Positions 1,780 through 56,100 of a stretch of 64,000 nt of DNA are shown here, one piece after another. The stretch spans positions 10,837,837 to 10,901,836 of the forward strand of contig NC_087080.1 of the NCBI RefSeq assembly GCF_026151205.1, written 5' to 3'. Made by a program: the position numbers and the translations under genes. Position 1 is the first letter of the stretch; each line of letters starts with the position of its first letter. This stretch comes from Bolinopsis microptera (lineage: Eukaryota; Ctenophora; Tentaculata; Lobata; Bolinopsidae). The notes beneath the pieces are model-generated. The model did not search any database and was not told the DNA's origin. It saw only the letters and a program-made list of their open reading frames with translations.

Positions 1780-2326
1780 TTGTTCGATCGGCTATGATTT
1801 AATAAGCATAAAGGTACCATTCTACAGAATATGTAAAATGTTTCACGATTAGTAAAAAAATTGGATAAAAGAAAGTTCGTTATTACACCATGATTTTTAC
1901 GTAATATTTCATGCCAGTGATCGTGGCGTTCAATCGAACGATTATTGAAAGGTTGAATCTTTGAACGAATTCCGTTAACTGATTCAATCCAGCCAGAAAC
2001 CTGCAGCAAATTAATACTAATTGGATTAAATTCGGATATAAAATGAACTGTTTTAGCAAGCCATATCATTTAATATTTCTGCGCTAATTGTGTTTCCTAT
2101 CCATGGGTCGGATCTCAACATAAAATAATTTTGGCCCCTTGGGCAAAAAAATCAATCCCTTTTGGCTTTTGGTTTCTCTGTCATCCTTTTCTTTTTTGTA
2201 AAATAATTTTAGGACAAAGAAGTACAATGTGTTGCTTAAATTAAATTCTTCGGTTTATCTACGAATTTCATTTAATCAAAACAACATCTTAAACCTAAAC
2301 CAAGCCTTTCATCTGTCCTCAGGAAA
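1780..2326 (+). promoter_or_regulatory. Conserved upstream block of secreted-protein gene 1
   Basis: This block resembles the DNA just upstream of the second and third copies (about 5940-6366 and 8580-8916). Shared pieces include a stretch reading TTGAATCTTTGA followed by AAYTCCG and an AAAATGTTTC motif. It ends in a pyrimidine-rich run, CTGTCCTCAG, four bases before the ATG, which looks like a 3' splice site. The block therefore probably holds the promoter and either a 5' UTR intron or a spliced-leader acceptor. Exact promoter elements are not identifiable by eye. Confidence 0.4.
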
Positions 2327-3586
2327 ATGTTTGTTGTGGTTTTGGTGGCACTGCTCGGCACTGCTTTCTCAGCTGAAATCGACCCGTCTCTCACCGAATG
2401 GAGACTCCTTAAAACAGACTTGGAAAAAGTAAAGTTCCCATTGAGAGACTACATCTTGGAAGTGAAATCATTCCGTCCTGATAACTACAACACCAACCCA
2501 TCGTATACCGAGCGGTTTGCGGTGTGGAAGATAACAACCATGATGATGCTTCTGCACGCTGGAAATTGGAAAAACCAAGCGGGACGTGTGACGTGGAATA
2601 CCATCAAATACGACGAGGGACGTGATATTGCTATTGAAGAGTGCGACGCCAGATACGAGGCCTACTATAGTTGGCCGGCTAATGGAGAGAAGGAGCAGAT
2701 ATGGGCGTGGAACTTCTTTGAGGACCACGTGGAACTGACGTGTAGTGGAGATATGCAATACCAGCAAAGATGGGATGAAGGTGAAGATCATCGGGACAAG
2801 CCGGGCTTGCCAGAGAAATGCGCAGCTCTCGGAGCTGTTGATGTGGACAGGATCACGTTCAGGCACATGGCAGGTGAGTACATCCGGGCACGACCCAAGG
2901 AAGTGAAGGAACCAGAACCTACTACTCCACCTAAAGCTACAACACAACCAGAACCTACTACTCCACCTAAAGCTACAACACAACCAGAACCTACAACACA
3001 ACCAAAAGTTACAACACAACCAGCTCCAGTCACTTCGACTGAAGATCCTGGACTACCTGATGATAACAAATTCGCTGAACTCTATCCCACCTGCGACTGC
3101 TGGACATCAGATTGTAACTACTGCGCCAATATGGAATGCACTGTCCAACATGACCTGATCGGAGATGACCTAGGGGTCCAGGTTACGTCTAAACTCGGCT
3201 GGAGGATATTGAACTCGATCGTGCTGTATGATGAAGAGGGAAATACTCTTGGAATGTTCCAGTGGAGTCTGAAAAAGATTCTTCTGACCGGCTGTGTCAG
3301 CTGTCAGTCACCTCCTGCTATACGAAGTATCAAACCTGGCACTGTAGATCTGTGGGTCTTCACTCTGGACATGATTGACGGGGTCCTGACGTTGCAGCTC
3401 AGTGTCGGTGGATCTGTTGTGTACGAGAATGCACTGGTCGGAGAATGCGCTGAGAGGTACAAGAATGTTGACAGATTTGCTTTCTTTGATATGACCTGTG
3501 AGAATACGTTTACATACGTGAAGGAACATATGGTGGCTGGAGCAAGAGTCACCCCTAACTGTGCTGGGTCTTGTCCTAGTTCTTGA
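2327..3586 (+). CDS. Secreted two-domain Thr/Pro-linker protein, copy 1
   Basis: A single-exon 419-residue protein. Residues 1-16 are a clear signal peptide ending AFSA. Residues 17-195 form a Trp-rich, Cys-poor domain. A linker of TTPPKATTQPEP-type repeats at about 200-245 looks mucin-like and probably carries O-glycans. Residues 255-419 form a second domain opening with CDCWTSDCNYC and containing about ten cysteines. The domains share an order of motifs (W..I.YDEG, W.F..D.V.LT, C......DR..F..M), so they may be an internal duplication. I do not recognise the family and assign no function. The start is supported by the signal peptide and by conservation in two neighbouring copies. An acceptor-like CTCAG lies four bases upstream. 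It is the first of four tandem paralogues and is nearly identical to the next copy over most of its length, but its last 25 codons and 3' UTR differ. Confidence 0.85.
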   Translation: MFVVVLVALLGTAFSAEIDPSLTEWRLLKTDLEKVKFPLRDYILEVKSFRPDNYNTNPSYTERFAVWKITTMMMLLHAGNWKNQAGRVTWNTIKYDEGRDIAIEECDARYEAYYSWPANGEKEQIWAWNFFEDHVELTCSGDMQYQQRWDEGEDHRDKPGLPEKCAALGAVDVDRITFRHMAGEYIRARPKEVKEPEPTTPPKATTQPEPTTPPKATTQPEPTTQPKVTTQPAPVTSTEDPGLPDDNKFAELYPTCDCWTSDCNYCANMECTVQHDLIGDDLGVQVTSKLGWRILNSIVLYDEEGNTLGMFQWSLKKILLTGCVSCQSPPAIRSIKPGTVDLWVFTLDMIDGVLTLQLSVGGSVVYENALVGECAERYKNVDRFAFFDMTCENTFTYVKEHMVAGARVTPNCAGSCPSS

Positions 3587-3829
3587 AGCGATATTTCGAC
3601 AATTGATATAGACTTACTTTGAAAATTGAAATATATAGAACATTACTTTGCATTCCATAAGTACTTAAGCAAACTAATTATGACTTATAATTACTTAACC
3701 TAATAACTATGAACTGATGATGACTATTATGACCAGATCGAAACTCGTTTTTCATTTTGCATTCGTCTTCCTCATTTAATTCGCCTCTATTAATTTTGAT
3801 GGATCATCGAAATTGCGTGTTTATTCTTC

Positions 3830-3990
3830 GAGCTGAGTCAGGACTAAAATACAATGTCAAACTTTGACAACTTGTGACGGGTTAGTTCTGAACATAATTT
3901 TTCTTCACAATTTGCGGGGCCTTTCTTCGAAACCCCAATCTAGGGGTTATAATTGTCTTGCACAAGTGCTTAATGATAAATATAAAAGTA
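3830..3990 (+). repeat. Shared intergenic block, copy 1
   Basis: This contains GAGTCAGGACTAAA, then a TGTCAAACTT-like stretch, then GGGTTATAATTGTCTTG. Related blocks lie at about 5630-5880, 8265-8450 and 10740-10860, each in the spacer before a member of the secreted-protein family. This is best explained as part of the tandem-duplication unit rather than a mobile element, because all copies share orientation and context. Confidence 0.6.
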
Positions 3991-5629
3991 CACCAATATA
4001 GCAATCACAATTAATAATTAATATGTTGTGTTTTCCTGGATTACACAAAAGCATGTAAAGATATTATTGATGACAGTTTCAAATCATAAATAAGTGAGAT
4101 TTCAATAAACTCTTTATGAAGTTTGAGGTGCTAAACATTGCCTAGCCCATTATGCCGGCAGAGTTCTGGTTAGAGTTAGAGTTAGAGTTAGGGTTAGAGT
4201 TATAGGGTTAGTGTTGGGGGTGGGTCGGGTGCTAATTTTGATGGATTTGCTGCTTACAACAAGATTCATCATCTTACTATATATAAAGCGATACGATATA
4301 TATAGGTATATCTGTTGCCATTTTAATGACACCACGACATCAACTTTTAACACTACTTTCCGCTAAAACCATTAGAGATACCTCAGTACAGGTTTTATAT
4401 GTCGACACGATGTTGTTGATTGTTAATAAATTCGCTGTGTATCACCGTCGGGATCATCCAAGGACTTTTCCTGTCATCATTCATCCTGGGATTCATGATC
4501 CTCATAACTAGTCAGTGTCTAACCAAAGCAGTTGTCTCATGGCGAGTTATGTTTCTAAAAAGTGGTTCAAAAATGGGTTTACACTATCGCAAAAGAACCC
4601 AAAAATGCTGCTCATTCGAGCAACCTTAGTTGGTTTCCATTGTAAATTTATAACGCACCCTGGGTATGAACTCTGGATTAGAATATAAATTGTTCACCGT
4701 ACAAAAATCTATTGTTTTGTAGATTTTATTTGCAGCACCTGCAAGATGCAATATATAATAACTTGATTTATGGCCACTGGCTGCAGCTATAATTGGCTTA
4801 CTAACTTTGGTACCATACTACAGAGAACGTAAAATGTTTCACAGTAAAGAAATCCAATGACCGTCGTCATTGATTTATGTTTCAAATCATCATTTAAATG
4901 AGTTATAAATAAATAATTTAATTTGGATAATTATGATCAAGGCTTTCACAATCGCATATATTTCTCGATCATGATGGTTGGTACAACCATTGAAATATTA
5001 CGTTAGTACAATAATATCGTCTCATATTTGTTGCAAGATAATATGTACGTGGCAGGTTTATTATTCTTGCTCACAATCAAAACAAGAATATATCAATACC
5101 TGTTTTATCATTTGTTATAATTATTATTACAAATACAATAGCGAGTTGCTTTGGATTTCAGTTCAGGATAACGAAAGTTTCTTTTGGAGAGATAAATCAA
5201 ACTGATCCATAAGCTGCTTCAAAACCTGAAATTAGCCAGAGTGCAAAATGACGGTTAATCAAGATGAGCTCAATTGCTATTAAAACTGTAGCAGTCATAT
5301 CTGTCGATTTGAATGTAATTCAAGGCTACCTCTAAATTTGTGCTACAACTTATAGCACTAGCAGCCTATAAGTGTGCGAATTTATATCTGTGCTCCAAGG
5401 GTCACTGCGCTAATTTGTGCACGTTTTTGTAACTGCTAAAATTGAAAACCTAAACTCATTGAGCATAGTTTATATTATTCACTGTCATCTAAGCTTCAAA
5501 GCTTATTAGGGGGGGGGGCACTCATTGTTTGTTTACTTTCATACGACAATGCAATGCATCTTTTCAAATATAATAGGCGAGTGTGGTGCGGAGTTAATAA
5601 GGGTTACGTTAAAAGGGTTACGTCTAAAC

Positions 5630-5880
5630 TCGATCACGGAATGAGATGTGAGAAAGACCAGCCATGAATTTCGTTGCTATTGTTCGAGCCGAGTCAGGAC
5701 TAAACGACGATGTCGAACTTTGGCAACTTGATGTAGATTGGTTCTGGAGCCCACCTGCAAAATATGATCGAACTTTTTCTTCAGAATTTTCGGGGCCCAA
5801 AGGGATCCTGTTCTATGGGTTAGTATTGTCTTGCTTAATGCTTATAAATGCTCCTGATCACAATTTCTGATTATTCTGTA
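5630..5880 (+). repeat. Shared intergenic block, copy 2
   Basis: The longest copy of the block that precedes each secreted-protein gene. It starts with GATCACGGAATGAGATGTGA and runs through GAGTCAGGACTAAACGACGA. A 68-codon open frame inside it is not shared intact by the other copies, so I do not call it a gene. Confidence 0.6.
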
Positions 5881-6366
5881 TATGCGACAAAGGAAAAATA
5901 CCTATACTTAGTCTAAATCTTATAACGTTATTTCGATTAAGTTATTTAGGCTGCTTCTATGCCATAATATAGACGGCGTGAATCGGTATAAATATGTTTC
6001 GTATAGCAAAAAAAAGAAGAGTTGAATCTTTGAAAGAATTCCGGTAATCATTGATTCGATCATGAGCTACTAGACACGCACCTTCAGAAAATTGGATTAA
6101 ATTCGAAGATAAAATGGCTGCACCGATTTAGCAACCTCGGCCTCAGTTAATATTTCTGCTCTTGGCCCTTTGGGCAAAAAAGACATGAACTTTTGATTTC
6201 TCTATCATACAAAAATATCGACCAATTAAATTCATTAAATGTGAACGTAATTTTGATCAATTTTTATTCTCCGGTTTATCTACAAAATTTATAATTTATC
6301 ACAAAATCTTTTTAATCAAAACGCCATCTTGAACTAAAACCAAGCCTTTTATCTGTCCTCAGGAAA

Positions 6367-7626
6367 ATGTTTGTTGTGGTTTTGGTGGCACTGCTCGGCA
6401 CTGCTTTCTCAGCTGAAATCGACCCGTCTCTCACAGAATGGAGACTCCTTAAAACAGACTTGGAAAAAGTAAAGTTCCCATTGAGAGACTACATCTTGGA
6501 AGTGAAATCATTCCGTCCTGATTACTACAACACCAACCCATCGTATGGCGAGCGGTTTGCGGTGTGGAAGATAACAACCATGATGATGCTTCTGCACGCT
6601 GGAAATTGGAACAATCAAGTGGGACGTGTGACGTGGAATACCATCAAATACGACGAGGAACGTGATATTGCTATTGAAGAGTGCGACGCCAGATACGAGG
6701 CCTACTATAGTTGGCCGGCTAATGGAGAGAAGGAGCAGATATGGGCGTGGAACTTCTTTGAGGACCACGTGGAACTGACGTGTAATGGAGATATGCAATA
6801 CCAGCAAAGATGGGATGAAGGCGAAGATCATCGGGCCAAGCCGGGCTTGCCAGAGAAATGCGCATCTCTCGGAGCTGTTGATGTGGACAGGATCATGTTC
6901 AGGCACATGGCAGGTGAGTACATCCGGGCACGACCCAAGGAAGTGAAGGAACCAGAACTTACTACTCCACCTAAAGCTACAACACAACCAGAACCTACTA
7001 CTCCACCTAAAGCTACAACACAACCACAACCTACAACACAACCAGAAGTTACAACAAAACCAGCTCCAGTCACTTCGACTGAAGATGCTGGACTACCTGA
7101 TGATAACAAATTCGCTGAACTTTATCCCACCTGCGACTGCTGGACATCAGAATGTAACTACTGCGCCAATATGGAATGTACTGTCCAACATGACCTGATC
7201 GGGGATGTCCTAGGGATCCAGGTTACGTCTAAACTCGGCTGGAGAATATTGAACTCGGTCGTGCTGTATGATGAAGAGGGAAATACTCTTGGAATGTTCC
7301 AGTGGAATCTAAAAAAGATTCTTCTGACCGGCTGTGTCAGCTGTCAGTCACCTCCTGCTATACGAAGTATCGAACCTGGCACTGTAGATCTGTGGGTTTT
7401 CTCTCTGGACATGATTGACGGGGTTCTGACGTTGCAGCTCAGTTATGGTGGATCTGTTGTGTACGAGAATGAACTGGTCGGAGAATGTGCTGAGAGGTAC
7501 TCAAAGATCGACAGATTTGCTTTCTTCGACATGACATGTGAGAATACGTTTAGTTATTCGAAAGCAGATATGGTGGCTGGAGCTAGAATAACACCAGACT
7601 GTTCCGGAGCTTGTCCTCTAATGTGA
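6367..7626 (+). CDS. Secreted two-domain Thr/Pro-linker protein, copy 2
   Basis: A 419-residue single-exon paralogue of the gene at 2327 with the same layout: signal peptide 1-16, first domain 17-195, TTPPKATTQPEP-type linker about 200-245, and a Cys-bearing second domain from CDCWTSECNYC. The body is close to copy 1, but the last 25 codons (DMVAGARITPDCSGACPLM region) and the start of the 3' UTR match copy 3. This mosaic pattern suggests gene conversion or unequal crossing-over. The 3' UTR opens with four copies of an 18-bp repeat (CTCAGATTGACTAAAT type, 7625-7690). The same acceptor-like CTGTCCTCAG precedes the ATG. It is secreted, with unknown function. Confidence 0.85.
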   Translation: MFVVVLVALLGTAFSAEIDPSLTEWRLLKTDLEKVKFPLRDYILEVKSFRPDYYNTNPSYGERFAVWKITTMMMLLHAGNWNNQVGRVTWNTIKYDEERDIAIEECDARYEAYYSWPANGEKEQIWAWNFFEDHVELTCNGDMQYQQRWDEGEDHRAKPGLPEKCASLGAVDVDRIMFRHMAGEYIRARPKEVKEPELTTPPKATTQPEPTTPPKATTQPQPTTQPEVTTKPAPVTSTEDAGLPDDNKFAELYPTCDCWTSECNYCANMECTVQHDLIGDVLGIQVTSKLGWRILNSVVLYDEEGNTLGMFQWNLKKILLTGCVSCQSPPAIRSIEPGTVDLWVFSLDMIDGVLTLQLSYGGSVVYENELVGECAERYSKIDRFAFFDMTCENTFSYSKADMVAGARITPDCSGACPLM

Positions 7627-8916
7627 TCTCAGATTGACTAAATCTCAGATTGACTAAATCTCAGATTTACTACATCTCAGATTTATTACTCGCCGAAACT
7701 CCGAAAATATAGAACATTATATCTGCAAATAAGATAGAACTTCGTCGTGACCCACCTCTTAGTATGTTTATTTTCAGGAGTAATATCAAGTTCAACTATA
7801 ATAAATAAAGTTCTATAATTATAAAATAATCAGTCATAGTCTATTTTAAACAATAATGTGTGATTGTTTGATGAATTTGAAAGTGTTTGAACAGAAAATA
7901 TTAAAGAACCGAAAATATTAAAGTTCATTTAAAAAAACTGTTTCTGGTTTTTGTAAAAATTAATTTTAAAATTCCCAATTTGCGTATCTTGCTTATTTTC
8001 ATGTAATAAAGAACATTTTCGCCAAAACCTTTTCGAAAAGTGCAAGGTCATTACAAAATAGCACTTGATGGAAATTAGACAATTAAATAAATCAAAGAAA
8101 AATGACTTCTTATACCTATTATGGCTTACCAAAACATCTTGAGTCATAGGAGAAGCGCCTGAATAGATGTTATAGCTAGGCCCTTGATTCTTATCTAAAA
8201 CCTCTATGGTAAACTGCTAGAACAATCTGCTAATTACCTCCTGGCTCTTATCTTGGGCAATCACGGAATGAGCTCTGAGAAGGACCAGCCATGAATTTCG
8301 TGGGTACACTTCCAGCTGAGTCAGGACTAAACGATAATGTCGAACTTGGACAACTTGTGGTGGGTTGGTTCCGGCCATAATTGCTCTGCAGAATTTGCGG
8401 GTCCTTTCTTCGAAATCCTAATCTAGGGGGTTATAATTGTCTTGTACTTTTATAAATCGAAACTCAATTAGTTGAACTATAGACATGCGAAATATCATAT
8501 CCTATCTTAAAAGTTCTTCCTGTGACAATCTTCTAACGTGATCCATCTCGTGCGAACTTTCCTAATGACCAGGGTATATCTAGGCTGCTTTTATGACGTA
8601 ATATAAAATAAGAAGGCATGAGTCGCTTACAAAATGTTTCGGTACGGGTTCGTGACAATTACAAATAAATGTTCTTATTGTGGCCGTGATTCTTACGTGA
8701 TATTTCATATCAGACGTGACATTGAATTGAATGGCTATTAAAAGATTGAATCTTTGAGAGAATACCGGTAATCTCTGGCTCAATCCATAAGCTAAACAGT
8801 AAACATGCACTCGCGACAAATTAATGCAAATTAGATTAAATTCGAATATAAAGTACACCGATATAGCAATCACAATTAATATTTCTGCTCAAGTTGTGTT
8901 TTCTGTCCTCAGAAAA
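7627..8916. other. Intergenic DNA between secreted gene copies 2 and 3
   Basis: No gene is supported. It contains the 18-bp 3' UTR repeats (7625-7690), a 3' block (7858-8010) that recurs after copy 3 at 10336-10490, the shared intergenic block at 8265-8450, and the gene-proximal upstream block from about 8580. AATAAA motifs near 7803 and 8004 are candidate poly(A) signals. Confidence 0.6.
8265..8450 (+). repeat. Shared intergenic block, copy 3
   Basis: The third copy of the duplicated spacer block, with ATCACGGAATGAGCT, GAGTCAGGACTAAACGATAA and GGGTTATAATTGTCTTG. Confidence 0.6.
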
Positions 8917-10137
8917 ATGTTTGTTGTGGTTCTAATTGTGGTGGCACTGCTCGGCACTGCTTTCTCAGCTGAAATCGACCCGTCTCTCACCGAATGGAGA
9001 CTCCTTAAAACAGACTTGGAAAAAGTAAAGTTCCCATTGAGAGACTACATCTTGGAAGTAAAAGCATTCCGTCCTGATTACTACAACACCAACCCATCGT
9101 ATACCGAACGGTTTGCGGTGTGGAAGATAACAACCATGATGATGCTTCTGCACGCTGGAAATTGGAAAAACCAAGTGGGACGTGTGACGTGGAATACCAT
9201 CAAATACGACGAGGGACGTGATATTGCTATTGAAGAGTGCGACGCCAGATACGAGGCCTACTATAGTTGGCCGGCTAATGGAGAGAAGGAGCAGATATGG
9301 GCGTGGAACTTCTTTGAGGACCACGTGGAACTGACGTGTAATGGAGATATGCAATACCAGCAAAGATGGGATGAAGGTGAAGATCATCGGGACAAGCCGG
9401 GTTTGCCAGAGAAATGCGCAGCTCTCGGAGCTGTTGATGTGGACAGGATCACGTTCAGGCACATGGCAGGTGAGTACATCCGGGCACGACCCAAGGAAGT
9501 GAAGGAACCAGAACTCACAACACCACCTAAAGCTACAACACAACCAGAACCTACTACTCCACCTAAAGCTACAACACAACCAGAACCTACAACACAACCA
9601 GAAGCTACAACACCAGGAGCCCATATTGAAGAACGTCGCATGTGTGATTGCTGGACTAAAGAATGCAACTACTGCTCCAACCTGGAATGCACAGTCCAAT
9701 ATGATCTTATCAATGGTTACGAAGGGATCGCAGTCCAGTCTAAGCTAGGATGGAGGATATTGAACTCGATTGTGCTGTACGATGAAGGAGGAAATACTCT
9801 TGGACTTTTCGAGTGGAACCTGCATAGCATCCATCTGACCGGTTGTATCAGCTGCCAGTCACCTCCAGCTATCCGAAGTATCAAACCTGGAAATTCCGAG
9901 TTTTGGTATTTCAATATGGACAGGATTGATGGGGTACTAACACTGACGCTCGGTATTGGTGGACATACTTTGTACTCCAACACATTGAAGGGGGAATGCG
10001 CCGACATATACTCAAAGATCGACAGATTTGCTTTCTCCGATATGACCTGTGAGAGTACGTTTAGTTATTCGAGATCAGATATGGTGGCTGGAGCGAGAAT
10101 AACACCAGACTGTTCCGGAACTTGTCCTCTAATGTGA
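8917..10137 (+). CDS. Secreted two-domain Thr/Pro-linker protein, copy 3
   Basis: A 406-residue paralogue. The frame is open further upstream to 8824, but I start at 8917 because that Met begins the conserved signal peptide (MFVVVLIVVALLGTAFSA, with two or three extra hydrophobic residues) and follows the same CTGTCCTCAG acceptor-like site. The first domain is nearly identical to copies 1 and 2. The linker is shorter, and the second domain (from CDCWTKECNYC) has diverged markedly while keeping its Cys, Trp and DRFAF positions. The last 25 codons and 3' UTR again match copy 2. One domain is therefore homogenised across the array while the other diverges. Function unknown. Confidence 0.83.
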   Translation: MFVVVLIVVALLGTAFSAEIDPSLTEWRLLKTDLEKVKFPLRDYILEVKAFRPDYYNTNPSYTERFAVWKITTMMMLLHAGNWKNQVGRVTWNTIKYDEGRDIAIEECDARYEAYYSWPANGEKEQIWAWNFFEDHVELTCNGDMQYQQRWDEGEDHRDKPGLPEKCAALGAVDVDRITFRHMAGEYIRARPKEVKEPELTTPPKATTQPEPTTPPKATTQPEPTTQPEATTPGAHIEERRMCDCWTKECNYCSNLECTVQYDLINGYEGIAVQSKLGWRILNSIVLYDEGGNTLGLFEWNLHSIHLTGCISCQSPPAIRSIKPGNSEFWYFNMDRIDGVLTLTLGIGGHTLYSNTLKGECADIYSKIDRFAFSDMTCESTFSYSRSDMVAGARITPDCSGTCPLM

Positions 10138-11640
10138 TCTCAGATTGACTACATCTCAGATTGACTACTCGCCGAAACTCTTAAAAATATTGAACATTGT
10201 ATCTGCAAGCAAAATAGAACTGGCTTTCTTCACCACTTTCATGCACGTTAACGAATATTTCTAGGAATATTTCTAACTATAATTGATGAAATTCTATAAA
10301 ACGATCAGTCATATCGTTAGTTTTGTTACACGATTATGTGTGATTGTTTGATGAATTTAAAAGTTTTTGAACAGAAAATTCTTAAGCATAATATAATTTT
10401 ATTTTTAAAGACTGTTTCTGCCTTTGGTTTTTGTAGAATTAATTTCAAAGTTCCCAATTTGTGTATTTTTCTTCTTTTTTTTGTAATAAAATTTTCGCCA
10501 AATTCTTCTCTAAGGTTATTATACTAATACAAGATAGCTCTCAGTGGAAATCAGACAAAAATAAATCTACTATGAGTATGACTTGACATTACACTCTTAG
10601 TCATGGCTGTAATTATAGCTAAGCCCTGAATTCGTATATGAATCTGAATCCTTTATGATAAACTGCCAATGGCGACGATTAACCGAATTATGCGACAAGC
10701 TGGCCATTCAGAATAATCTGCTAATTACCTCTTATCTTGGACAATCACGAAATGAGCTGTGACAAAGACCAGCCATGAATTTTGTGGGCACCCTTCGAGC
10801 TCAGTCAGGACTAAACGACAATGCCGAACTTGGACAACTTGTGACGGGTTGGTTCTGCACCCTGCAGTCCTCCTGCAAAATATAATAATAGGACTAAAAG
10901 TAAAGGTAAAGGGTAATCTTTAATTTTATTGTACGGCTTCGCTTGCACCCTCCGCCGGCCCGGCTACGGAAAGATGATGGCTCGGGCAGCGTCTGGCAAG
11001 AATTTTAGCTGACAGGGGGAGAGGGGCTTCATGTCGTCTTGAGGAGCGTGTGATTGTTTCCGAAAAATATGTCTTCTAGTACGAGGACTTTCGAAGTCTT
11101 TCATCTCATATAAATATTATTCGTTGTATTTAGGAAAGAATTCCGACGATTCTTACTCCATGAATCTTGCTAGACATGCTTATCTTTTAAGAAGAGAATA
11201 TTCTATATGTTATTTAACAATACGATTAAATTCTGATTTGAAATTATACAATTAAGGAACGTCGTACTCAGATAAATATTTTTGAATTTTTATAAAAAAT
11301 GTAAATTTACTTTGCACTTCGGACACAATAACTAAATCGCTGCAAAGTTACATTGATGCTCTTGAACCCATTTTCTAGTTGTTGTTTTGTTGAATATATT
11401 AGCTTTTTAACGCTATCCACTATCGTTACAATTTCTTGGGAAATTTTAGTTTGCAAAAGTTTTGCTGCGTTTCTTATATCTACAATTTCAATAGATGGTT
11501 AATTAAAACGTTGTAACGCGGCTCATGGCTGACTCAGCTATATTCCATAAAATAATTTATCTAAAATCTTTACCATTAAACTAGATCTCAAAGATAAGTT
11601 CACTTAAAGTTAATTTACCACAGAACCAATCCGTCAAACA
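10138..11640. other. Intergenic DNA between secreted gene copies 3 and 4
   Basis: No gene is supported. It contains a repeat of the copy 2 downstream block (10336-10490), the last shared spacer block (10740-10860) and a GC-rich patch at about 10905-11035, unlike the AT-rich surroundings and possibly a foreign fragment. The rest is AT-rich with no recognisable exon. I looked here for the missing first exon of the downstream kelch gene and did not find it. Confidence 0.5.
10740..10860 (+). repeat. Shared intergenic block, copy 4
   Basis: The shortest copy of the block, with CAATCACGAAATGAGCTGTG, CAGTCAGGACTAAACGACAA and ACAACTTGTGACGGGTTGG. It breaks off into unrelated GC-rich sequence near 10870. 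Confidence 0.55.
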
Positions 11641-12279
11641 ATGTTTGTCCTGGTTGCAATGGCGCTTCTTGGTACAGCCCTCTCTGCTGTTTTAAACCCT
11701 TCCTTAACCACATGGAGACTTCTGACGCAGAACGAGGAGAGGGTCATGTTTCCTCTAAGAGACTACACCCTGGAAGTCAAAGCATTCCTTCCTGATGAGT
11801 ACGATACAAACCCATCGTATGGCGAACTTTTCAGAACGGATAAGGCCACTACTATGATGATGTTACTGCACGCTGGACACTGGAGCAAGAAAGTCGGCCG
11901 TGTGGTGTGGAATACCATCAAATACGACGAGGGACGGGATATTGCTATTGAAGAGTGCGACGCCAGATACGAGGCCTACGGGAGCTTTCCCGCCGGAGGA
12001 AAGAAGGAGCAGATCTGGGCATGGACATTTTTCGAGGATCACCTTGAACTGACATGTAACGGAGAACTTCAGTACGAGCAAAACTTTAACCATGGTGATG
12101 TTAATCGTAGAAAACCTGGCTTGCCACGAAAGTGTCGAGCACTTGGAGATGCAGATTTGGACCGGATAACATTCAGACATATGGAGGGTTGCTATATCCG
12201 TGGGAGACCCAAAATTGACAAAGAAACGAGATTTACGGCATCTGCAACCCACTCTGAATCACAAACACCTTACTATTAA
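11641..12279 (+). CDS. Secreted single-domain paralogue, copy 4
   Basis: A 212-residue protein: signal peptide 1-16 (MFVLVAMALLGTALSA) and then only the first domain of the family. It is clearly homologous to the other three (LRDYTLEVKAF, WNTIKYDEGRDIAIEECD, DRITFRHMEG) but more divergent. The frame ends soon after the domain, with no Thr/Pro linker and no second Cys domain, and the DNA downstream shows no trace of one. It may be the ancestral single-domain form or a truncated copy. The upstream DNA is not like that of the others, although TTTACCACAG lies 21 bases before the ATG. Function unknown. Confidence 0.78.
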   Translation: MFVLVAMALLGTALSAVLNPSLTTWRLLTQNEERVMFPLRDYTLEVKAFLPDEYDTNPSYGELFRTDKATTMMMLLHAGHWSKKVGRVVWNTIKYDEGRDIAIEECDARYEAYGSFPAGGKKEQIWAWTFFEDHLELTCNGELQYEQNFNHGDVNRRKPGLPRKCRALGDADLDRITFRHMEGCYIRGRPKIDKETRFTASATHSESQTPYY

Positions 12280-12974: not shown

Positions 12975-15900
12975 ACACGTTTGGACTAGCCAAGTTGCAA
13001 GGAGAGTTCGGGGGCCGTTACGAGCACGTGGCTGTGGTCCATGACAACGAGGTTCTAGTGTTCGGTGGAGCTGACACTTCTGGGAATAGGAACGATCTGC
13101 AGAAACTGAACTTAGGTAATTGTTGGCAGAATGGTAATTACTTAGGTAATTGTTGGCACTTTCAACGCTACACAATCGGTTTCTATATTCGTTTTAATGT
13201 TAACTTCACGTCGTATCATAATATAAAATAAACTGCAATATACAAACCCCATGTTACAGTTGACGGTAGTGTAACTGCTTATCTATAAACCCCCTGTTAC
13301 AGTTGACGGTAGTGTAACTGCTAATCTATAAACCCCCTGTTACAGTTGAGGGTAGTGCAACTGCTTATCTATAAACCCCCTGTTACAGTTGACGGTAGCG
13401 TAACTGCTTATCTATAAACCCCCTGTTACAGTTGACGGTAGTGCAACTGCTAATCTATAAACCCCCTGTTACAGTTGACGGTAGTGTAACTGCTAATCTA
13501 TAAACCCCCTGTTACAGTTGACGGTAGTGCAACTTCTTATCTATAAACCCCCTGTTACAGTTGACGGTAGCGTAACTGCTTATCTATAAACCCCCTGTTA
13601 CAGTTGACGGTAGTGTAACTGCTTATCTGTAAACCCCCTGTTACAGTTGACGGTAGTGTAACTGCTAATCTATAAACCCCCTGTTACAGTTGACAGTAGT
13701 GTAACTGCTAATCTATAAACCCCCTGTTACAGTTGACGGTAGTGCAACTGCTTATCTATAAACCCCCTGTTACAGTTGACGGTAGTGTAACTGCCATGCT
13801 AATCTATAAACCCCCTGTTACAGTTTACAGTAGTGTAACTGCTAATCTATAAACCCCCTGTTACAGTTGACGGTAGTGTAACTGCTAATCTATAAACCCC
13901 CTGTTACAGTTGACGGTAGTGTAACTGCTAATCTATAAACCCCCTGTTACAGTTGACGGTAGTGTAACTGCTAATCTATAAACCCCCTGTTACAGTTGAC
14001 GGTAGTGTAACTGCTAATCTATAAACCCCCTGTTACAGTTGACGGTAGTATAACTGCTAATCTATAAACCCCCTGTTACAGTTGACGGTAGTGTAACTGC
14101 TAATCTATAAACCCCCTGTTACAGTTGACGGTAGTGTAACTGCTAATCTATAAACCCCCTGTTACAGTTGACGGTAGTGTAACTGCTTATCTGTAAACCC
14201 CCTGTTACAGTTGACGGTAGTGTAACTGCTAATCTATAAACCCCCTGTTACAGTTGACAGTAGTGCAACTGCTAATCTATAAACCCCCTGTTACAGTTGA
14301 CGGTAGTGTAACTGCTAATCTATAAACCCCCTGTTACAGTTGACAGTAGTGTAACTGCTAATCTATAAACCCCCTGTTACAGTTGACGGTAGTGTAACTG
14401 CTAATCTATAAACCCCCTGTTACAGTTGACGGTAGTGTAACTGCTTATCTATAAACCCCCTGTTACAGTTGACGGTAGTGTAACTGCTTATCTATAAACC
14501 CCCTGTTACAGTTGACGGTAGTGTAACTGCTAATCTATAAACCCCCTGTTACAGTTGACGGTAGTGTAACTGCTAATCTATAAACCCCCTGTTACAGTTG
14601 ACGGTAGTGTAACTGCTTATCTGTAAACCCCCTGTTACAGTTGACGGTAGTGTAACTGCTAATCTATAAACCCCCTGTTACAGTTGACGGTAGTGTAACT
14701 GCTAATCTATAAACCCCCTGTTACAGTTGACGGTAGTGTAACTGCTAATCTATAAACCCCCTGTTACAGTTGACGGTAGTGTAACTGCTTATCTGTAAAC
14801 CCCCTGTTACAGTTGACGGTAGTGTAACTGCTAATCTATAAACCCCCTGTTACAGTTGACGGTAGTGTAACTGCTAATCTATAAACCCCCTGTTACAGTT
14901 GACGGTAGTGTAACTGCTAATCTATAAACCCCCTGTTACAGTTGACGGTAGTGAAACTACTAATTTATAAACCCCATGTTACAGTTGACAGTAGTGTAAC
15001 TGCTAATCTATAAACCCCCTGTTACAGTTGACGGTAGTGTAACTGCTAATCTATAAACCCCCTGTTACAGTTGACAGTAGTGCAACTGCTAATCTATAAA
15101 CCCCCTGTTACAGTTGACGGTAGTGTAACGGATGTTCCAGCAGTAGACGCCCCTTCTCCCCGGACAATTCACAACATGGGTGTTAGTGAGGGTCGTGTGC
15201 TGGTGTGGGGAGGCGGTGATACAGGTGCTACTCCCGTCCAGGATTCAGCGATACACTCTCTTAATCTCGGTTTGTGGTTACTTTTGGTTACTTCTGGGTA
15301 CCTGTGGTTACTTGTGGGTACTTGTGGTTACTTGTGGTTATTTTTGGTTACTTTTGGTTACTTTTGGTTACTTGTGGGTACTTGTGGTTACTTGTGGGTA
15401 CTTGTGGTTACTTTTGGTTACTTTTGGTTATTATGGCAAGTAGCTTCATTCATCCATTCACCACTGTACCCTACATTTAGGCTAAATGTATCTTTTTATC
15501 AGCTTCAATGTAATATATGAATATCGCGGTTATTACTTTGAATTGCTGGTTAGTATCATCTTTTGACCCTGATTCGATCGAATCAGCACCATTTTTATAT
15601 CTTAGATTGTTTGAGTTACTGAAATTATACCCATATTATAATTAGCGATATTGGGATAATCGCAATAATTTATGTCTATTTTTGAATTTTGCTGTTTGTA
15701 ATTTGTAATGCCAAATGATGTCTGGCCTGACACGAGCGCAAAGCAGCCCGGGCCCTGGGCCCGGGCTGTGTAAGACAAGTTTGATACTAGTCCTTCAATT
15801 AAGTTCAGCTAAAGAAAATCAAATTAACTTTATAATAATAGAGTTTAAGCTTGCAGATTTCAAACTGCAAACTAGATCAAATTATCTTACTGATAGAATG

Positions 15901-18287: not shown

Positions 18288-19126
18288 TATTTTGTAGCTC
18301 AAGTGTTAAATATGGTGTTTTAAACTTATTTTGCATCATCAAATATAAATCTAATTTTGGTTTTGGGGAAAGTCGACACATAAGGTAGCTGGTATGAAAT
18401 CATGATATTATTTCGGGGGAAGTCATGGCATTGCCAGCTGGATAATAACTTCGAGGTGACGGCTTTTTCGCACGGGCTACAAACAGCCAAAATTACACCA
18501 CTTTGCCTTTTAAAACTTTATTGTGACTTTTCAGCTCAGCCTTATTAAACCTCCTACATTTTCAACCAGAATCATAAAAAGGGTATTAAAACTTTAGTCT
18601 TTGTAGTTGCAAATATTTGAAGCAGAAGCAGAAATCCTGCTTGGTGCTTTAACTGTAACTGCACCTTTCAACAAGACATTCCACAAGAAATTTCTACTGA
18701 AAACACACTGTAGCCCTTTGATAATCTGCCACCTATCGAATTAGGCCTGACGAATGTCGAATATTATTGTCTGCAGGTTAACGGTAATTGAATTTCGTGT
18801 AATATTTTCCGATACTGGCAGGCCAAGTTGTGAATTCTATTTTAAAATCGAGCAATCGGAAAGCTTCGTTTTACATAACACCTGGTTAACCTACCTTATC
18901 ACACATGACACAGCTGTTAACTTACATAATAAGCTATGTTTAAGTGTGTGGCTTCACATTGGTATTAGTGGATATATTGCAACTTCAGCATTACATTCCT
19001 AACAGTTACACTCCAAATACCTTTACTGGCTTTACTGGCCTATTATTATTACATACCAGTTTGTACGTGCCCCTGTTCGTTACATTTGTAAGTTACGCTG
19101 AAGTTTGTTGTACCCTCATCATCATC
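18288..19126. other. Spacer between kelch gene and thioredoxin
   Basis: No coding exon is supported. It presumably contains the kelch 3' UTR and the thioredoxin promoter. Frames open into this region upstream of the thioredoxin Met but show no family resemblance. Confidence 0.5.
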
Positions 19127-19453
19127 ATGGCTGTCCCTCTTGAATCGTGGAAGGAGTTTGAAAAGCACGTGCTCCACTATAAAGGAAGTAAGATAGTAGT
19201 GGTGGACTTCTGGGCTGCTTCATGCGGAGACTGCATAGTTCTGGCTCCTTTTTTCTACACTCTAGCAGAGAAGAACAAGCAGTGTGATTTCTACGAGGTA
19301 GATGTGGAGGAAACAACTGAGGTGGCGAACTGGGCCAAGATAAAGAAGCTGCCGACTATCAAGTTTTACAAGTACGGACAGTGTATCGAGACCATTGAGG
19401 GTGGGGCCCAGGGTAAGATTTCTGCTGCTGTTGCTAAGCATAAGAACGCTTAG
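19127..19453 (+). CDS. Small thioredoxin with atypical CGDC active site
   Basis: A 108-residue single-exon thioredoxin-fold protein. The frame is open upstream, but I start at 19127, which gives normal thioredoxin length and begins just before the first helix. The core strand KIVVVDFWA is followed by SCGDC: catalytic Cys33 and Cys36 are present, but the usual Trp before the first Cys is Ser and the Pro between the cysteines is Asp. The cis-proline loop is intact (KKLPTIKF, Pro76), as is the GG near the C-terminus. Both cysteines remain, so dithiol exchange is plausible, but redox potential and partners probably differ from those of WCGPC enzymes. It is a cytosolic type with no signal peptide. 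Confidence 0.88.
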   Translation: MAVPLESWKEFEKHVLHYKGSKIVVVDFWAASCGDCIVLAPFFYTLAEKNKQCDFYEVDVEETTEVANWAKIKKLPTIKFYKYGQCIETIEGGAQGKISAAVAKHKNA

Positions 19454-37500: not shown

Positions 37501-40500
37501 TCTAGTGAGCTAAAATCTTAATACTTCATAATTTATACGTATCTTGATTCTTGACACTGAATTCTCTTCTTTTTACTCTCTTTAAATTTCTATTAATTCT
37601 TCAGTCATAACATATTACATTCTAAATCAAACGGTTTCTCAAAAACAAGTAACCCCTCTTTTAGAGTGACCCCTCTTCTAACCCCTCTTTCAGAGTGACC
37701 CCTCTTATAATCCCTCTTTTAGAGTGACAACACGTTAGCAGCCTGGGAGGGTTTGTACACAGAGATACTAAATTACTACGAACGACCCAACACCTTGTTT
37801 CCAGTCACTATAGCTCTGTTGAAACTCCTGAAGAGAGCTTGTGAGGATGCAGAGTTTGTTAAAAACGATCAGTACCTAACCGAGGTATATATGTTTGAGT
37901 CACGTGTTTAGATAGTTTAAGTTCAGCATAGATCTCCTCAGAAATATCTCGCTAATAATAGTGCGGAAAAAAAAAACTAACTTGTCAAATCTATAATTCC
38001 TGTGAAACGAAACTAACTTATGAAATCTCCACCAGGGCGTACTGATACTGCTGTACGTGTTGAGGGATGTGTTTTGTGGAATCCAGAAGTGGAGGTTTGA
38101 GAACGCTCTTGTCAAGCTCAAGATGTGCAAGTCCATTCTTGTTGTCATCGCTAAAGTTATGAAAATCTACAATGAGGCTCAGGTAGGAATGTAGTGGGAT
38201 TTAGATCTGTCTTTAAGTGTTCAAAGTTTGTATTATTTTATGATGATCATGAACTAATACGCAGAGACACTCGCTATCTTAGTACATACTGTATTTTAGT
38301 TGTATTTCAGTATTTGTTCAGTAGTATTTCAGTAGTATTTCAGTGGTATTTTAGTCGTATTTTATTAGAGTACAGTAATTTCCAAACTATTTCCTTATCT
38401 CGGTAGGAAGAACGCCAAGAATGCAAAGCTCCGTTAATGACGCTGATAGAAGAGCACATGTTACCAGCCCTCCACACTGGCCCCGCCCACCACACTCTGT
38501 TAAACATCGTGTCCTGGTGCTCCGCTCTCGATAATCTCAATGTGAGTTATGTCATATGTGTGGAATGTGTAAATTTGAGATTCGTTGTATTATTGAATAA
38601 ATTCCTTATTTTAAACACACGTGATACCTACTGTTTCCTCACGTGGTATGCTTATTATTACAATGAGTATATTGTACTCTTGTTATGGTTATTCCTGTTT
38701 GTTTGCCGCATTTAGTAGGTACCATATAAAGCTTGGTACGTAGCATAGAGCGATAAGAAATAAATCATTGTGTTTGGTTAAACATATTATAATGGTGTTT
38801 TTCAGGTTGAAGAGTATGTCCAGAGGAAGGTATGCTCGGTGGTTAGCCACACTCTCACAGTTCTCTCTCTTGTTATCAAGCTCTCTCCTGCCAACTCAGG
38901 TACTTGTGGACCTTTATCACGTGACCTTCATTTTATCACGTGACCTTCATTTTATAGCGTGACCTTCATTTTATCATTGCCAATTTATATATTTTTTGTC
39001 ACTTTTAATAAGTCTTTTGAAGAAGAGTTGCGAGGAGTAGATGTGCAATAACTTTTATTTGGGATGAAAATCATAAAGACTTTTTTAAATGCGGAAAAAA
39101 TATATTTTTTGTCATCATTGGTTACATGCTACTAAATTGACACGAAATCATAATATGGTAGTTGATATTCATTAACACCACTTTTAAGTTGGGACTAACC
39201 CAAAAAATCAAAATTAACATTCCAAAAATAAAACTAAGAAATAGTTAATAAAATTGCTAATAGTCCATTATGAGCAGACAGGCACTTAGGTACATCACAG
39301 TAGTCCCATCTTTTATCAGGATTGGTTGTGTAGCACCAAGCTCCCGCCTCCCATAGGTTCGTTGTCAGGATTTCTGCAGTAATTATGGTCACCCAGACCG
39401 CTGTTGGGATAGTTATCCTCTGTTCTGCTGTGAGCATGAGGATTATGCTCCGTCCATTTCATGCAAGCTTCTCCTGAAACAGTTTCTTCAATACTACCCC
39501 TATAATCCTTCTGCAAGCAATCCCAACAATCCTTTTTGGCAAGAGTTTATGGGCAATTAGGAACATCACAATAATCCCATCGTTTATCAGGATTGGTTGT
39601 GTAGCACCAAGCTCCGGCGGGTTCGTTGTCTGGATTCCTGCAATAATTGTGGTTTCCAAGTCCTGCTTCTGGGTAGTTTCCTTCGGTGCGGCTATGTTCC
39701 TGAGGATACTGTTCCGTCCATTTCTGGCATTGTTCACCTGATTCTGTTACTTGTAGTGGTCCTCTATAGTCCTTCTGCAGACCGTCCCAGCATTTATCCT
39801 CAGTGCATGAAGGGACAGGACAGTAGTCCCATCTTTGTAACGGATTGGTTGTGTAGCACCACGCTCCCATAGGTTCGTTGTCAGGATTCCTGCAGTAATT
39901 ATGGTCACCCAGGCCGCTGTTTGGATAATTTTTCTCTGTTCTGCTGTGTTCATGAGGATTCTGTTCCGTCCATTTCATGCAAGTATCTCCTGAGATGGTT
40001 TCTTTAACACCACCCCTATAGTCCTTCTGCAATGAATCCCAACAATCCTTTTTGGCAAGAGTTGATGGGCACTTAGGAACATCACAGTAATCCCATCGTT
40101 TATCAGGATTGGTTGTGTAGCACCAAGCTCCGGCGGGTTCGTTGTCTGGATTCCTGCAATAGTTGTGGTTTCCAAGTCCTGCTTCTGGGTAGTTTTCTTC
40201 GGTGCGGCTATGTTCCTGAGGATACTGTTCCGTCCATTTCTGGCATTGTTCACCTGATTCTGTTACTTGTAGTGGTCCTCTATAGTCCTTCTGCAGACCG
40301 TCCCAGCATTTATCCTCAGTGCATGAAGGGACAGGACAGTAGTCCCATCTTTGTAGAGGATTTGTTGTGTAGCACCAAGCTCCATTAGGTTCGTTGTCAG
40401 GATTTCTGCAGTAATTATGGTCACCCAGGCCGCTGTTTGGATAGTTTTCCTCTGTTCTGCTGTGAGCATGAGGATTCTGATCCGTCCATTTCATGCAAGT

Positions 40501-43500
40501 TTCTCCTGAGATGGTTTCTTTAATACTACCTCTATAATCCTTCTGCAACCCATTCCAGCCAGACCAGCAAACGTCTATGCTGTTAACATAACAAGACAAG
40601 ATCACTGTAGCAAGTAATACTTTCATCTTTTTCTCACCCTTCCACGAATTATTTCATCCTAAGGTAGATGTTGTTCTGGTTAGCAGGCAGTAAAAGAGTA
40701 ATTTAACACAATCTGTGTACCCTTTGGATTCGGCAAAAATAGGAATTTTTTCCAGAAAAAGTATTTTATTGAAATTGCGTCACCAAAATAGCAACAGAAT
40801 TACAAACTCTTTCTGTACTGCTGGGTAATTTAAAATTCAAATAACCACTTGAAAGAAGTTAACATATCAAACACTGGGAATCGGGTTTTCATCAAGTACA
40901 AGGACAAATAAAAAGGAAAACTTTGAAAAAATTTCGACTCCAAGTAATTCTCGATATGTACCTCTGATGACAGAGCTCCAGTAATCGACCGGGACATGAT
41001 TTTAGGCCTGACCGGGACCGGGACCGGGACCGGGACCAAGAATCCTGAATTGACCGGGACCGGGACCAGGATCAAAAATCAGCATTTGACCAGGACCGGG
41101 ACCGGGATGAAAAATGTGACTTGACCGTGACCAGGACCAGGATAGGTCAAAATTGCCGATCCCGGTACCGGGATTTCCGGTACCGGGAATCCCGGAAGAT
41201 TACTGGTTAATTCATGATCATAATTTATTACTCAAACTTGTTTAGTAATAAACATAAAATCACAGTGAATGAAATTATGTAAAAGATCCCGGTCAAAATC
41301 CCGGCAAATTTGAGTGATTGACTGGGACCAGGATCGGGACCAAGAATCCTGAATTAACCGGGACCGGGATCATAAATCAGCATTTGACCGGGACCGGGAC
41401 TGGGGTAGCTCAAAATTGCCAATCCCGGTCGATTACTGCAGAGCTACCGCCTGTATTCCGAGATTGCAATACAAGGGGGAAGCCTCTAGTCCAAAATCGT
41501 GTATCAAGAGGTAGGTACTACTAATAGGTACGGACTTCAGTAAAGTAAACCGAAAAAAATATGCTTGGCTCATAATGATCAGGGTAGCATAAATCGTGGA
41601 AAATGATTGGTTTCTAGGAATCAACTTTCACAAGCTTTCTTAACCCACTCGTCTGCTGACGTAACATTGTTAGCTAAAAACGTCCCTAAAACTTGACACT
41701 AGACATAAAGTTGACCACTAGACATGATATAAAACTTAACCTCTACTTAACCTCACCAACCTTGACTACTAGACACCCCAATCAATGTATGGAAAACTGC
41801 AAACATTCACATGACGACGACTTACCCCATTTGGTAAATAAAATAATGTGTTAGGCATAAGGCTAGTTAGGAGTTAATTTGTTAAGTGACATTGAATCAT
41901 GAGATTTGGAACCATGAGAACACCGATCAATTGTTAAGACAATCTATACGGACAACAGCTCATGAGGCCGAGGGTAAAGGACATATTTCTACAAACATAG
42001 TGATCAGGAGTGTCTGCTTAATACTCGGACGATGAGCCCTCGGCTCGGTCCCCACAAAAGATAATCTTCAGAGTTAACTTAGTTAAGACTCATGGTCAGT
42101 CTATAAAACACACGAAAAGCAGTGTGCTCCATACCCCTTAGTCTCCACCTTTGTTATCAAAACACGTGATTCGATCACGTGATGCTATCTCATTGTAAAC
42201 AGGGTTTATTCGTTTAATTACGTCTAGTATGGTATTAACACAAGTTAACTAATAATATTATGTATATGACTATGAGTACAGATTCGAAGTGGAACATAGA
42301 GTTCCGTTCTGGCGAGCTGGGAGGAACTTTCGAGATCGTCTGGAAGGGCTGATCTAAAAGCAAGCACTGGTCAGTATTTATAGCTAATCTAACTAGACTA
42401 ACAAGCTAGTTAACGATTTTCGCAGCGTTTTTGCCTAGTTTGGCATTTCGCTGCACCGCGATTTTTGGCCTAAATAATCGCGATTTTCTTTTGTCCTTGA
42501 TCAAGTATAAGAAATAAAGGATACCAACTAAATTAACACGTTTATGAGGTAGAAATTAATACATCAATCACTCTGGGCATCAACTAATTATTGTCAGATG
42601 TTGAAAAGTTTAAAATCATGGATAAAACGAGCATAGAATTAGCAGGAATCGACCAGGATTCCCGGTACCGGGAATCCTGGTACCGGGATTGGCAATTTTG
42701 AGCTATCCCGGTCCCGGTCCCGGACCCCGGTCCCGGTCAAATGCTGATTTATGATCCCGGTCCCGGTCCCGGTTAATTCGGGATTCTTGGTCCCGTTCCC
42801 GGTCAATCGACCGGGATCTTTTACATAATTTCATTCACTGTGATTTTAAGTTTTTCCTTTCATTCATTGTGAATTTCATCTTTAAACATCCTCTGAGCCA
42901 AATAAAACAATGTTTAAAATCGCTAAACAAGTTTGAGTAATAAATTATGATCATGAATTAACCATTAATCGACCGGAATTCCCGGTACCGGGAATTCCGG
43001 TACCGGGATTGTCAATTTTGAGCTATCCCAGTCCGGGTCCCGGTCCCGGTCAAGTCACATTTTTCATCCCGGTCCCGGTCAAATACTGATTTATGATCCC
43101 GGTCCCGGTTAATTCAGGATTCTTGGTCCCAGTCCCGGTCCTGGTCAGGCCTGAAATCATGTCCCGGTCGATTCCTGACAATTAGAAAAGATTCAGTTGG
43201 GCATCATGTATGATTATACGCTGATAACCTACCAAACACTGATGCCGTTAAAAAAAGTGTCTACGAAATTAGAGCAATGAACAGATAGGCTGATAACACT
43301 TATTCGACCAACTGAAATCGCTCATCAGTACGACCAGCATGGCACACAGCAATAATTAAACTTTCCTATGGCATTAACATTTTGAAGCGAGATAAAAAAC
43401 TCACGAATTATGGCATGGACCAATCTGAAAGAATTACCAAAAACTAATCAAGTTATCAATTATATTGCAATTGTAAATTTTAAACCGGTTTGCGGCAAAC

Positions 43501-55203: not shown

Positions 55204-56100
55204 CTAAAGTTCCGGCTCTGCTGGTGGGGTGTTTTCTGGGTGAATTCTTGATCTGGTCAGTTTCCGGCTTAATGTACCCGACAACTGAGAGTATTGTGTT
55301 TTAAAAGATATAGGGATCCCTCTAAGCCAACTCCTCATGTTTGGTTTGCGGATGAAGTATACGATAGGGTTAAACACTGAATTCAATACTATTAAAAGTT
55401 GAAATGAGAATGACCCATTTTGTTTGTCCCATCCTTTGATCAGCTTTGCTTGAGATCCTGTAACTATGAACTTAACATTCCGAGCAACTCCTAAAACCAT
55501 TATACTGTTGCAGAAAATGAACAGCACTGAAAGTGTTAGAACTGTTTTTGCTGCTTCCGCATTTGTGGCAGAAAGTGGCAGTAGTCCAGGTCGGAGAAGC
55601 TTTATAACACATATGATGTTTGAAATTATTATCGCCATCATCAAGGTCATCATCCAAATTGTCATTTCACAAATGTTGGCGATTTGCCAATTGGTGAGGA
55701 TGTTCTCATCCGATTTATAGACTGTACCTTTATGGTTCAATAACACCTCGACAGTTGCGCTATAGACGAAATAAAGTGAAATGGCTAACCATATGATCTT
55801 TCCTTTCATGCGATATAAAGGAGCACTGATCTTGATGGCCCGTGTCACTGCAATGACCATTGTGATGAACAGTGTGTTGTAAGTCACCGCTTTGTAAGCT
55901 AGATTCAGCTTGCTTTGGGAGTCAATCCAAAAAAAGATGGGAAATCTGGAACAAGCAATAAAATCCCAAAAAGTAAGCAGTAAGAACAGTTTGTTAGTGA
56001 GTCCATTCCTGGATTGAATCAGGAAGAAGGAAAAAGAAAGGGTATTAGCAAGGGCTCCAAAGATCGACACGGTTATTGAAATTATCAGCCACGCTGACAT
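55204..56100 (-). CDS. Class A G-protein-coupled receptor, copy 1
   Basis: A 298-residue intronless receptor with seven hydrophobic segments at about 4-27, 36-58, 67-90, 103-122, 140-167, 185-210 and 232-252. Class A marks: GALANTLSF in segment 1 (conserved Asn), a TRAIKI box at the end of segment 3 in place of DRY, and NPIVY at 244-248 in segment 7. The extracellular N-terminus is only a few residues, so a small or membrane-embedded ligand site is likely. The C-tail is basic (SRKLTRSR) then PPAEPEL. Ligand unknown. It is the first of at least three tandem copies with a 1.9-kb period, antisense to NUP188 and possibly within its next intron. Confidence 0.88.
   Translation of the reverse strand: MSAWLIISITVSIFGALANTLSFSFFLIQSRNGLTNKLFLLLTFWDFIACSRFPIFFWIDSQSKLNLAYKAVTYNTLFITMVIAVTRAIKISAPLYRMKGKIIWLAISLYFVYSATVEVLLNHKGTVYKSDENILTNWQIANICEMTIWMMTLMMAIIISNIICVIKLLRPGLLPLSATNAEAAKTVLTLSVLFIFCNSIMVLGVARNVKFIVTGSQAKLIKGWDKQNGSFSFQLLIVLNSVFNPIVYFIRKPNMRSWLRGIPISFKTQYSQLSGTLSRKLTRSRIHPENTPPAEPEL

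Follow-up and report, generated by a model that had tools for sequence, protein, structure and literature searches.

How does splicing settle on one acceptor when an intron presents it with dozens that look nearly the same? The question is raised by a kelch gene of the ctenophore Bolinopsis microptera, lying in a stretch of 64,000 nucleotides of contig NC_087080.1 that was analysed as a whole and that we refer to as the window; all coordinates below are window positions unless stated otherwise. The locus amounts to a natural experiment on splice-site choice, with 44 near-identical acceptors in one intron and a single one that gives the protein. Given this near-identity, local sequence alone cannot pick out the last acceptor. 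If splicing is accurate here, the right site is not identified by local acceptor sequence, and the downstream exon together with its donor must do so.

The array consists of a 43-bp unit repeated head-to-tail in 44 copies on the forward strand, from 13234 to 15129. Tandem Repeats Finder (TRF) describes it as 13231-15129, with a period of 43, 44.1 copies, 95% matches and a score of 3459, and the left edge (after an AAC) and the right edge used here were read by eye. The roughly 44-fold amplification of a 43-bp unit that was claimed in the original prediction is thus confirmed, while the edges given there (13232 and 15125) shift to a start two bases later and an end at 15129. The consensus unit is TGCTAATCTATAAACCCCCTGTTACAG/TTGACGGTAGTGTAAC, the slash marking the intron-exon junction. 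When the array was split into copies, 20 of the 44 were identical to this consensus and 15 distinct unit types were found in total. Copies were located by the hexamer TTACAG, which is hence common to all of them by construction; as the spacings between hexamers are 43 nt, except for a single spacing of 48 nt caused by a unique 5-bp insertion near 13795, there is no room for a copy without it. A chance TTACAG within a unit (acceptor position 13831) was excluded from all counts. A search of the 265-Mb genome with a 25-nt core of the unit, allowing up to three mismatches, returned 44 matches, all inside the array, and the reversed control pattern returned none. The first copy, at the 5' edge, is the most diverged, with seven differences when aligned ungapped or four, by eye, when one 1-nt gap is allowed, but the copy at the 3' edge is free of differences. 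Decay might perhaps have affected the edge that faces the intron, with the edge at the exon held by coding constraint.

Each of the 44 units combines 27 nt of intron end with 16 nt of exon start. Judged by its motifs, the unit appears to be a complete 3' splice site, made up of a branch-point-like TGCTAATC, a pyrimidine tract, CAG and 16 nt of kelch exon. The branch-site consensus is yUnAy, with which TGCTAATC agrees, and the motif puts the likely branch A at 22 nt upstream of the junction; CCCCCTGTTACAG follows, with no AG in between. The commonest variant, present in 12 of 44 copies, is an A to T change at -23, which is the free position in yUnAy. The last 16 intron nucleotides are identical in 42 of 44 copies, and the other two carry A for C at -9. 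Only copy 44 runs on into the open exon that starts at 15114, whose first 16 nt are the last 16 of the unit. The claims that the unit holds the pyrimidine run, CAG and first 16 exon bases, that the acceptors are nearly identical and that the exon follows on from the last copy alone were all borne out. Hence, the array belongs to a known kind of repeat, the boundary-spanning minisatellite or 'mirage': the unit spans an intron-exon boundary throughout, the splice signal TTACAG is kept in 44 of 44 repeats, and the authentic junction appears to enter a real exon, as suggested by the open frame and the kelch match across it. A constraint on the upstream copies was also considered, as variable columns make up 1 of 16 in the tract and AG but 10 of 27 elsewhere (Fisher p 0.033); the test left out the first copy, was chosen after seeing the data and draws on few independent events, and it carries no weight here. 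Evidence for a gradient of growth from one end of the array to the other is just as weak (Spearman -0.32, p 0.037, or -0.26, p 0.089, once the first copy is dropped).

The array sits within a gene of which six exons, running from 12975 to a stop near 18290, form one open frame of 307 aa across five introns. The predicted product has a Pfam match to Kelch_KLHDC2_KLHL20_DRC7 (161.7 bits), in agreement with the kelch-type gene originally proposed. In one match to this domain, covering residues 13 to 144, the junction falls in codon 47, and the match continues through the exon start at 15114, which encodes VDGSVT. Among relatives of solved structure, LZTR1 scores best by sequence (94.3 bits), and its alignment has no gap at the junction. 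Together with the single open frame over five introns, this alignment argues for the predicted join 13115^15114. RABEPK, the name of a human protein, is in our view presumably a fair one for this gene. A genome search found no spliced retrocopy, as the exon DNA matches once only, and a protein search returned the gene's own three exons and one distant kelch sequence at 29% among 10 candidates scored. No Rfam match was obtained within the 64-kb window. Because the exon part of the unit codes inside the kelch domain, the array probably arose from the junction, with the exon as the older element and the source of the copies.

What would happen at the upstream acceptors can be read from the frame. 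When joined to 13115, 42 of the 43 upstream copies run for 29 nt before a stop, and the remaining one for 77 nt; the expectation of a TAA within about 30 bases therefore holds for all but one. The excluded chance site at 13831 meets a stop at 8 nt. Use of the nearest three upstream acceptors would give exons of 199, 242 and 285 nt, compared to 156 nt from the last. The donor-like hexamer GTAACT, which the units had been said to contain, is present in 35 of 44 copies and absent from the remaining nine, and GTAGTG, 6 nt into the exon part, is found in 41 of 44. At the other end of the intron the 5' splice site is itself duplicated, and splicing from the second donor would lengthen the exon by 30 nt, an open in-frame stretch of 10 aa. 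The features discussed are collected in Table 1.

Table 1. Features of the kelch locus and of the second acceptor array (window positions; slashes mark exon-intron or intron-exon junctions)
Feature	Position	Strand	Basis or description
Kelch (RABEPK-like) exon upstream of array	12975..13115	+	open frame via five introns; kelch match
Duplicated 5' splice site of the array's intron	13110..13158	+	19 bp (ACTTAG/GTAATTGTTGGCA) twice, 30 bp apart
AAC triplet at 5' edge of array	13231-13233	+	by eye; matches AAC closing last copy (15127-15129)
Intron part of last copy, presumed acceptor in use	15087..15113	+	TGCTAATC, pyrimidine tract, CAG; branch site by motif
Kelch exon fed by last copy, 156 nt, open	15114..15269	+	frame; LZTR1 alignment
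10-bp x 15.9 array	15272..15430	+	TRF; starts at third intron base after next donor junction 15269/15270
Second acceptor mirage, Nup188 gene	37650..37728	+	29 bp x 2.7, CCCCTCTTTTAG/AGTGAC; last copy leads to exon 37723-37884

We consider it likely that the array is a mirage-type minisatellite that grew by neutral slippage, and that its last acceptor is picked by exon definition. In this view, the exon would have existed first, and the junction would have been duplicated by slippage or by unequal exchange, possibly involving two AAC triplets. The AAC triplets at the two ends of the array are a possible 3-bp microhomology behind this founding duplication, though at just 3 bp they are weak evidence for the origin. 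Unequal exchange and conversion could then have expanded and homogenised the array within the intron, in which extra length would be tolerated. The last acceptor, which has the coding exon behind it, would be chosen by exon definition, and the transcript would be mostly correct because, of all the acceptors, this one lies nearest to the downstream donor. Now and then one of the nearest decoys would be used, adding 43n nt and an early stop, and the product would be removed by nonsense-mediated decay. The array would thus be largely neutral, costing at most a slight amount of output that depends on its length, and it is most likely harmless, as the last copy is probably still used.

This explanation agrees with the presence of a second acceptor array of like kind in Nup188, with the confinement of the unit core to the 44 copies here, with the coding nature of the exon part (five-intron frame, kelch domain, ungapped LZTR1 alignment), with the contrast between the diverged 5'-edge copy and the unchanged last copy, and with the early stop that follows 42 of 43 decoys after 29 nt. 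Adh3 data and RT-PCR of globins from amphioxus are described as suggesting that such repeats leave splicing undisturbed (PMC3087553), and the repeat in human ABCA7 opens with a donor GT, for which a one-unit retention isoform has been observed (PMC5954066). On the other hand, 43 intact decoys remain, exon definition does not obviously bar exons of 199 or 242 nt, and the exon-first order draws on domain matches within a single species. Neutrality in particular is challenged by lower ABCA7 expression with longer arrays (PMC5954066), by the repeat sites of IFI6 that serve as donors (PMC4526556) and by boundary repeats in human segmental duplications that can alter splicing (PMC2812944).

The original prediction had suggested a different role for the array, namely that copy number could tune RABEPK expression. 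Here the last acceptor would face competition from the 43 decoys, most transcripts would be lost to nonsense-mediated decay, and copy number would in this way set the protein level. The near-identity of the acceptors and the early stop from all 43 upstream copies would fit such a rheostat, as would the drop in ABCA7 expression as the repeat lengthens. We nevertheless regard it as unlikely; the mirages of amphioxus reportedly leave splicing intact (PMC3087553, PMC3902484), and the ABCA7 authors observed no influence of repeat length on nonsense-mediated decay (PMC5954066).

Other arrays in the window bear on how such a junction could have been hit. In the Nup188 gene, identified by Pfam PF21093 (52.3 bits; its exons gave a chance-level hit only against solved structures), the second acceptor array has three acceptors with 6 nt of exon each, and only the last enters the exon. 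Downstream in the same gene, an 11-bp x 6.5 array of TATTTCAGTAG type (38291-38362), acceptor-like by eye, ends 45 nt before the acceptor at 38407 and has no exon sequence in its unit, and a 19-bp x 3.4 array (38913-38976) starts 13 nt after a donor. A degenerate 13-bp unit, TCCTCCTCCTCAG, which is acceptor-like by composition, extends over 1.9 kb (6259-8130) in a 200-kb sample taken from the contig of the window. Arrays with a period of at least 7 occupy 10.7% of the window, 12.8% of which lies within 15 nt of one, and 12.9% of the 200-kb sample, which includes 2,796 letters N. Among 21 modelled boundaries in two genes, two are crossed by such arrays, with 2.2 expected, and four are crossed or lie within 15 nt, with 2.7 expected; the second gene was modelled after its acceptor array had been seen, which biases the count upwards, and the duplicated donor of the kelch gene, not being a TRF array, lies outside it. 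Given the occupancy of the window, 2 of 21 is the level expected by chance, and a targeting of junctions by arrays was rejected. A home-made exon caller was dropped; it called 13 exons in the window and missed short exons of both genes. Taken together, the occupancy and the chance-level crossing indicate that this genome makes minisatellites widely and that some of them land on junctions. It is quite unlikely, in our estimate, that ctenophore genomes go further and continually make junctions into expandable arrays, with dozens of acceptors per such gene whose number changes fast between individuals and sets the amount of correct mRNA, and which may seed new exons and introns.

Tandem arrays are difficult to assemble, and an artefact could concern the copy number or the whole array. 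We consider this very unlikely, as the 15 unit types follow one another without an obvious period and the unique 5-bp insertion is present, unlike in a simple assembly loop; we are less sure of the exact copy number than of the presence of the array. One might also speculate that the array masks itself, with the unit folding over the unit border such that the AGs of the decoys are paired and only the last copy, which is without the 3' arm, is open. With flanks of 75 or 150 nt, the predicted probability that the AG is unpaired is about 0.5 in the last copy, the highest of 44, compared to a mean of 0.08-0.09 in the 43 decoys. The stem, which was derived from these same sequences, is kept in 93.1% of cells and in at most 56.9% when slid (24 of 44 copies, picked by hand, 18 of them distinct). 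With 40-nt flanks, however, the last copy reaches only rank 38 of 44, counted from the lowest value (0.50 versus a mean of 0.34), and its pyrimidine tract is the least accessible of all 44 whichever of the three flank lengths is used. When the units were shuffled, the resulting arrays masked the AG equally, 53% of 300 giving a value no higher than that observed. No pair shows a two-sided change, and 9 of the 18 distinct rows have one pair broken. Structural masking of the decoys, suggested by AG accessibility, thus failed the shuffled-unit and pair-change controls and appears highly improbable; the choice of the last acceptor is not explained by predicted folding. Least probable of all are the tiny exons that the original prediction had called conceivable, here of 6 or 11 nt, spliced from the units via GTAGTG or GTAACT and inserting TTGACG or TTGACGGTAGT, for although the hexamers are frequent and a 6-nt exon would keep the frame, both lack a G at +5 and the intervening introns would measure just 37 nt (6-nt exons) or 32 nt (11-nt exons).

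Several other features of the window were recorded. Upstream of the kelch exons, four tandem paralogues (2276-12279) encode a protein that looks secreted by eye. A 36-bp coding repeat occurs in three of them, and a Pfam scan of one of the four gave no match at E 0.001. A single-exon thioredoxin-like frame (by eye) with CGDC at the active-site position lies at 18944-19453. On the reverse strand, repeated kringle-domain proteins are found at 39547-40653 and 50025-50651, the second with a collagen-like tail by eye, and Pfam confirmed the kringle domain for the latter only. Fragments resembling reverse transcriptase, again by eye, occur on both strands at 43807-46396. Repeats of 10 bp of the CGCTAGATAG type, in both orientations, form two blocks (57406-58042 and 61702-62281) near two near-identical receptor-like frames on the reverse strand (55204-56133 and 62303-62992), and this arrangement may be a segmental duplication. 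Ionotropic glutamate receptors had 32 matches in the genome among 35 candidates scored, on contigs C1-C10 and C12; ten of these lie in single open frames of more than 900 aa, and there are clusters on C12 and C3. A receptor frame on C12 scores highest against the iGluR ML032222a of Mnemiopsis leidyi (177.6 bits, compared to 143.9 for the next receptor).

Under the name 'mirages', boundary-spanning repeats are known from amphioxus (PMC3087553, PMC3902484), where they are described in the globins BflGb6 and BflGb9 and in Adh3 (PMC3087553), as well as in TnC and PGBD5, with Adh again included (PMC3902484). BflGb6 is the nearest parallel to the kelch array in that both show a minisatellite-like duplication of an intron 3' end and the 5' part of the exon, but the two BflGb6 haplotypes have 6 and 3 units compared to 44 copies here, and the host is a cephalochordate instead of a ctenophore (PMC3087553). 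A unit of 43 bp is within the range of 10-72 bp given for the Adh3 mirage and is therefore not unusual in size, and AG/GT signals are kept in many, not all, amphioxus units (PMC3087553). Further traits described for amphioxus mirages are length instability, between haplotypes or somatic, and concerted evolution inside the cluster with its edges excluded; in the kelch array, as given by this one assembly, 20 of 44 copies equal the consensus and the first copy is the most diverged, but the 3'-edge copy has no differences, perhaps because it is coding. Undisturbed splicing is suggested by RT-PCR in amphioxus (PMC3087553). In human segmentally duplicated genes, internal tandem repeats have a mean of four 30-bp units and affect splicing, and some of them, with 27 intron modifications, lie at exon-intron boundaries (PMC2812944). 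The latter resemble the kelch array in position, but the human repeats vary between recent paralogues and are tied to new introns inside exons; intronic minisatellites of C. elegans (PMC4039745) appear to be a less close parallel. The repeat in intron 18 of ABCA7, a polymorphic 25-bp unit with about 12 to about 427 copies whose length is linked to expression, likewise starts from a splice site in use, as the exon 18 donor is the first GT of the array, and use of a decoy leads to retention of one unit and a frameshift (PMC5954066). It is located on the donor side, with no exon sequence apparent in the unit as described there, in contrast to the acceptor-side kelch array with its exon part. The minisatellite of human IFI6 (G1P3, 6-16; Turri 1995) also supplies several copies of one splice site, two downstream units being used as donors to give three mRNAs (PMC4526556), but it again acts on the donor side. 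What the kelch array contributes is a high copy number on the acceptor side and an occurrence in another phylum, and the ctenophore case takes boundary-spanning minisatellites beyond amphioxus and human.
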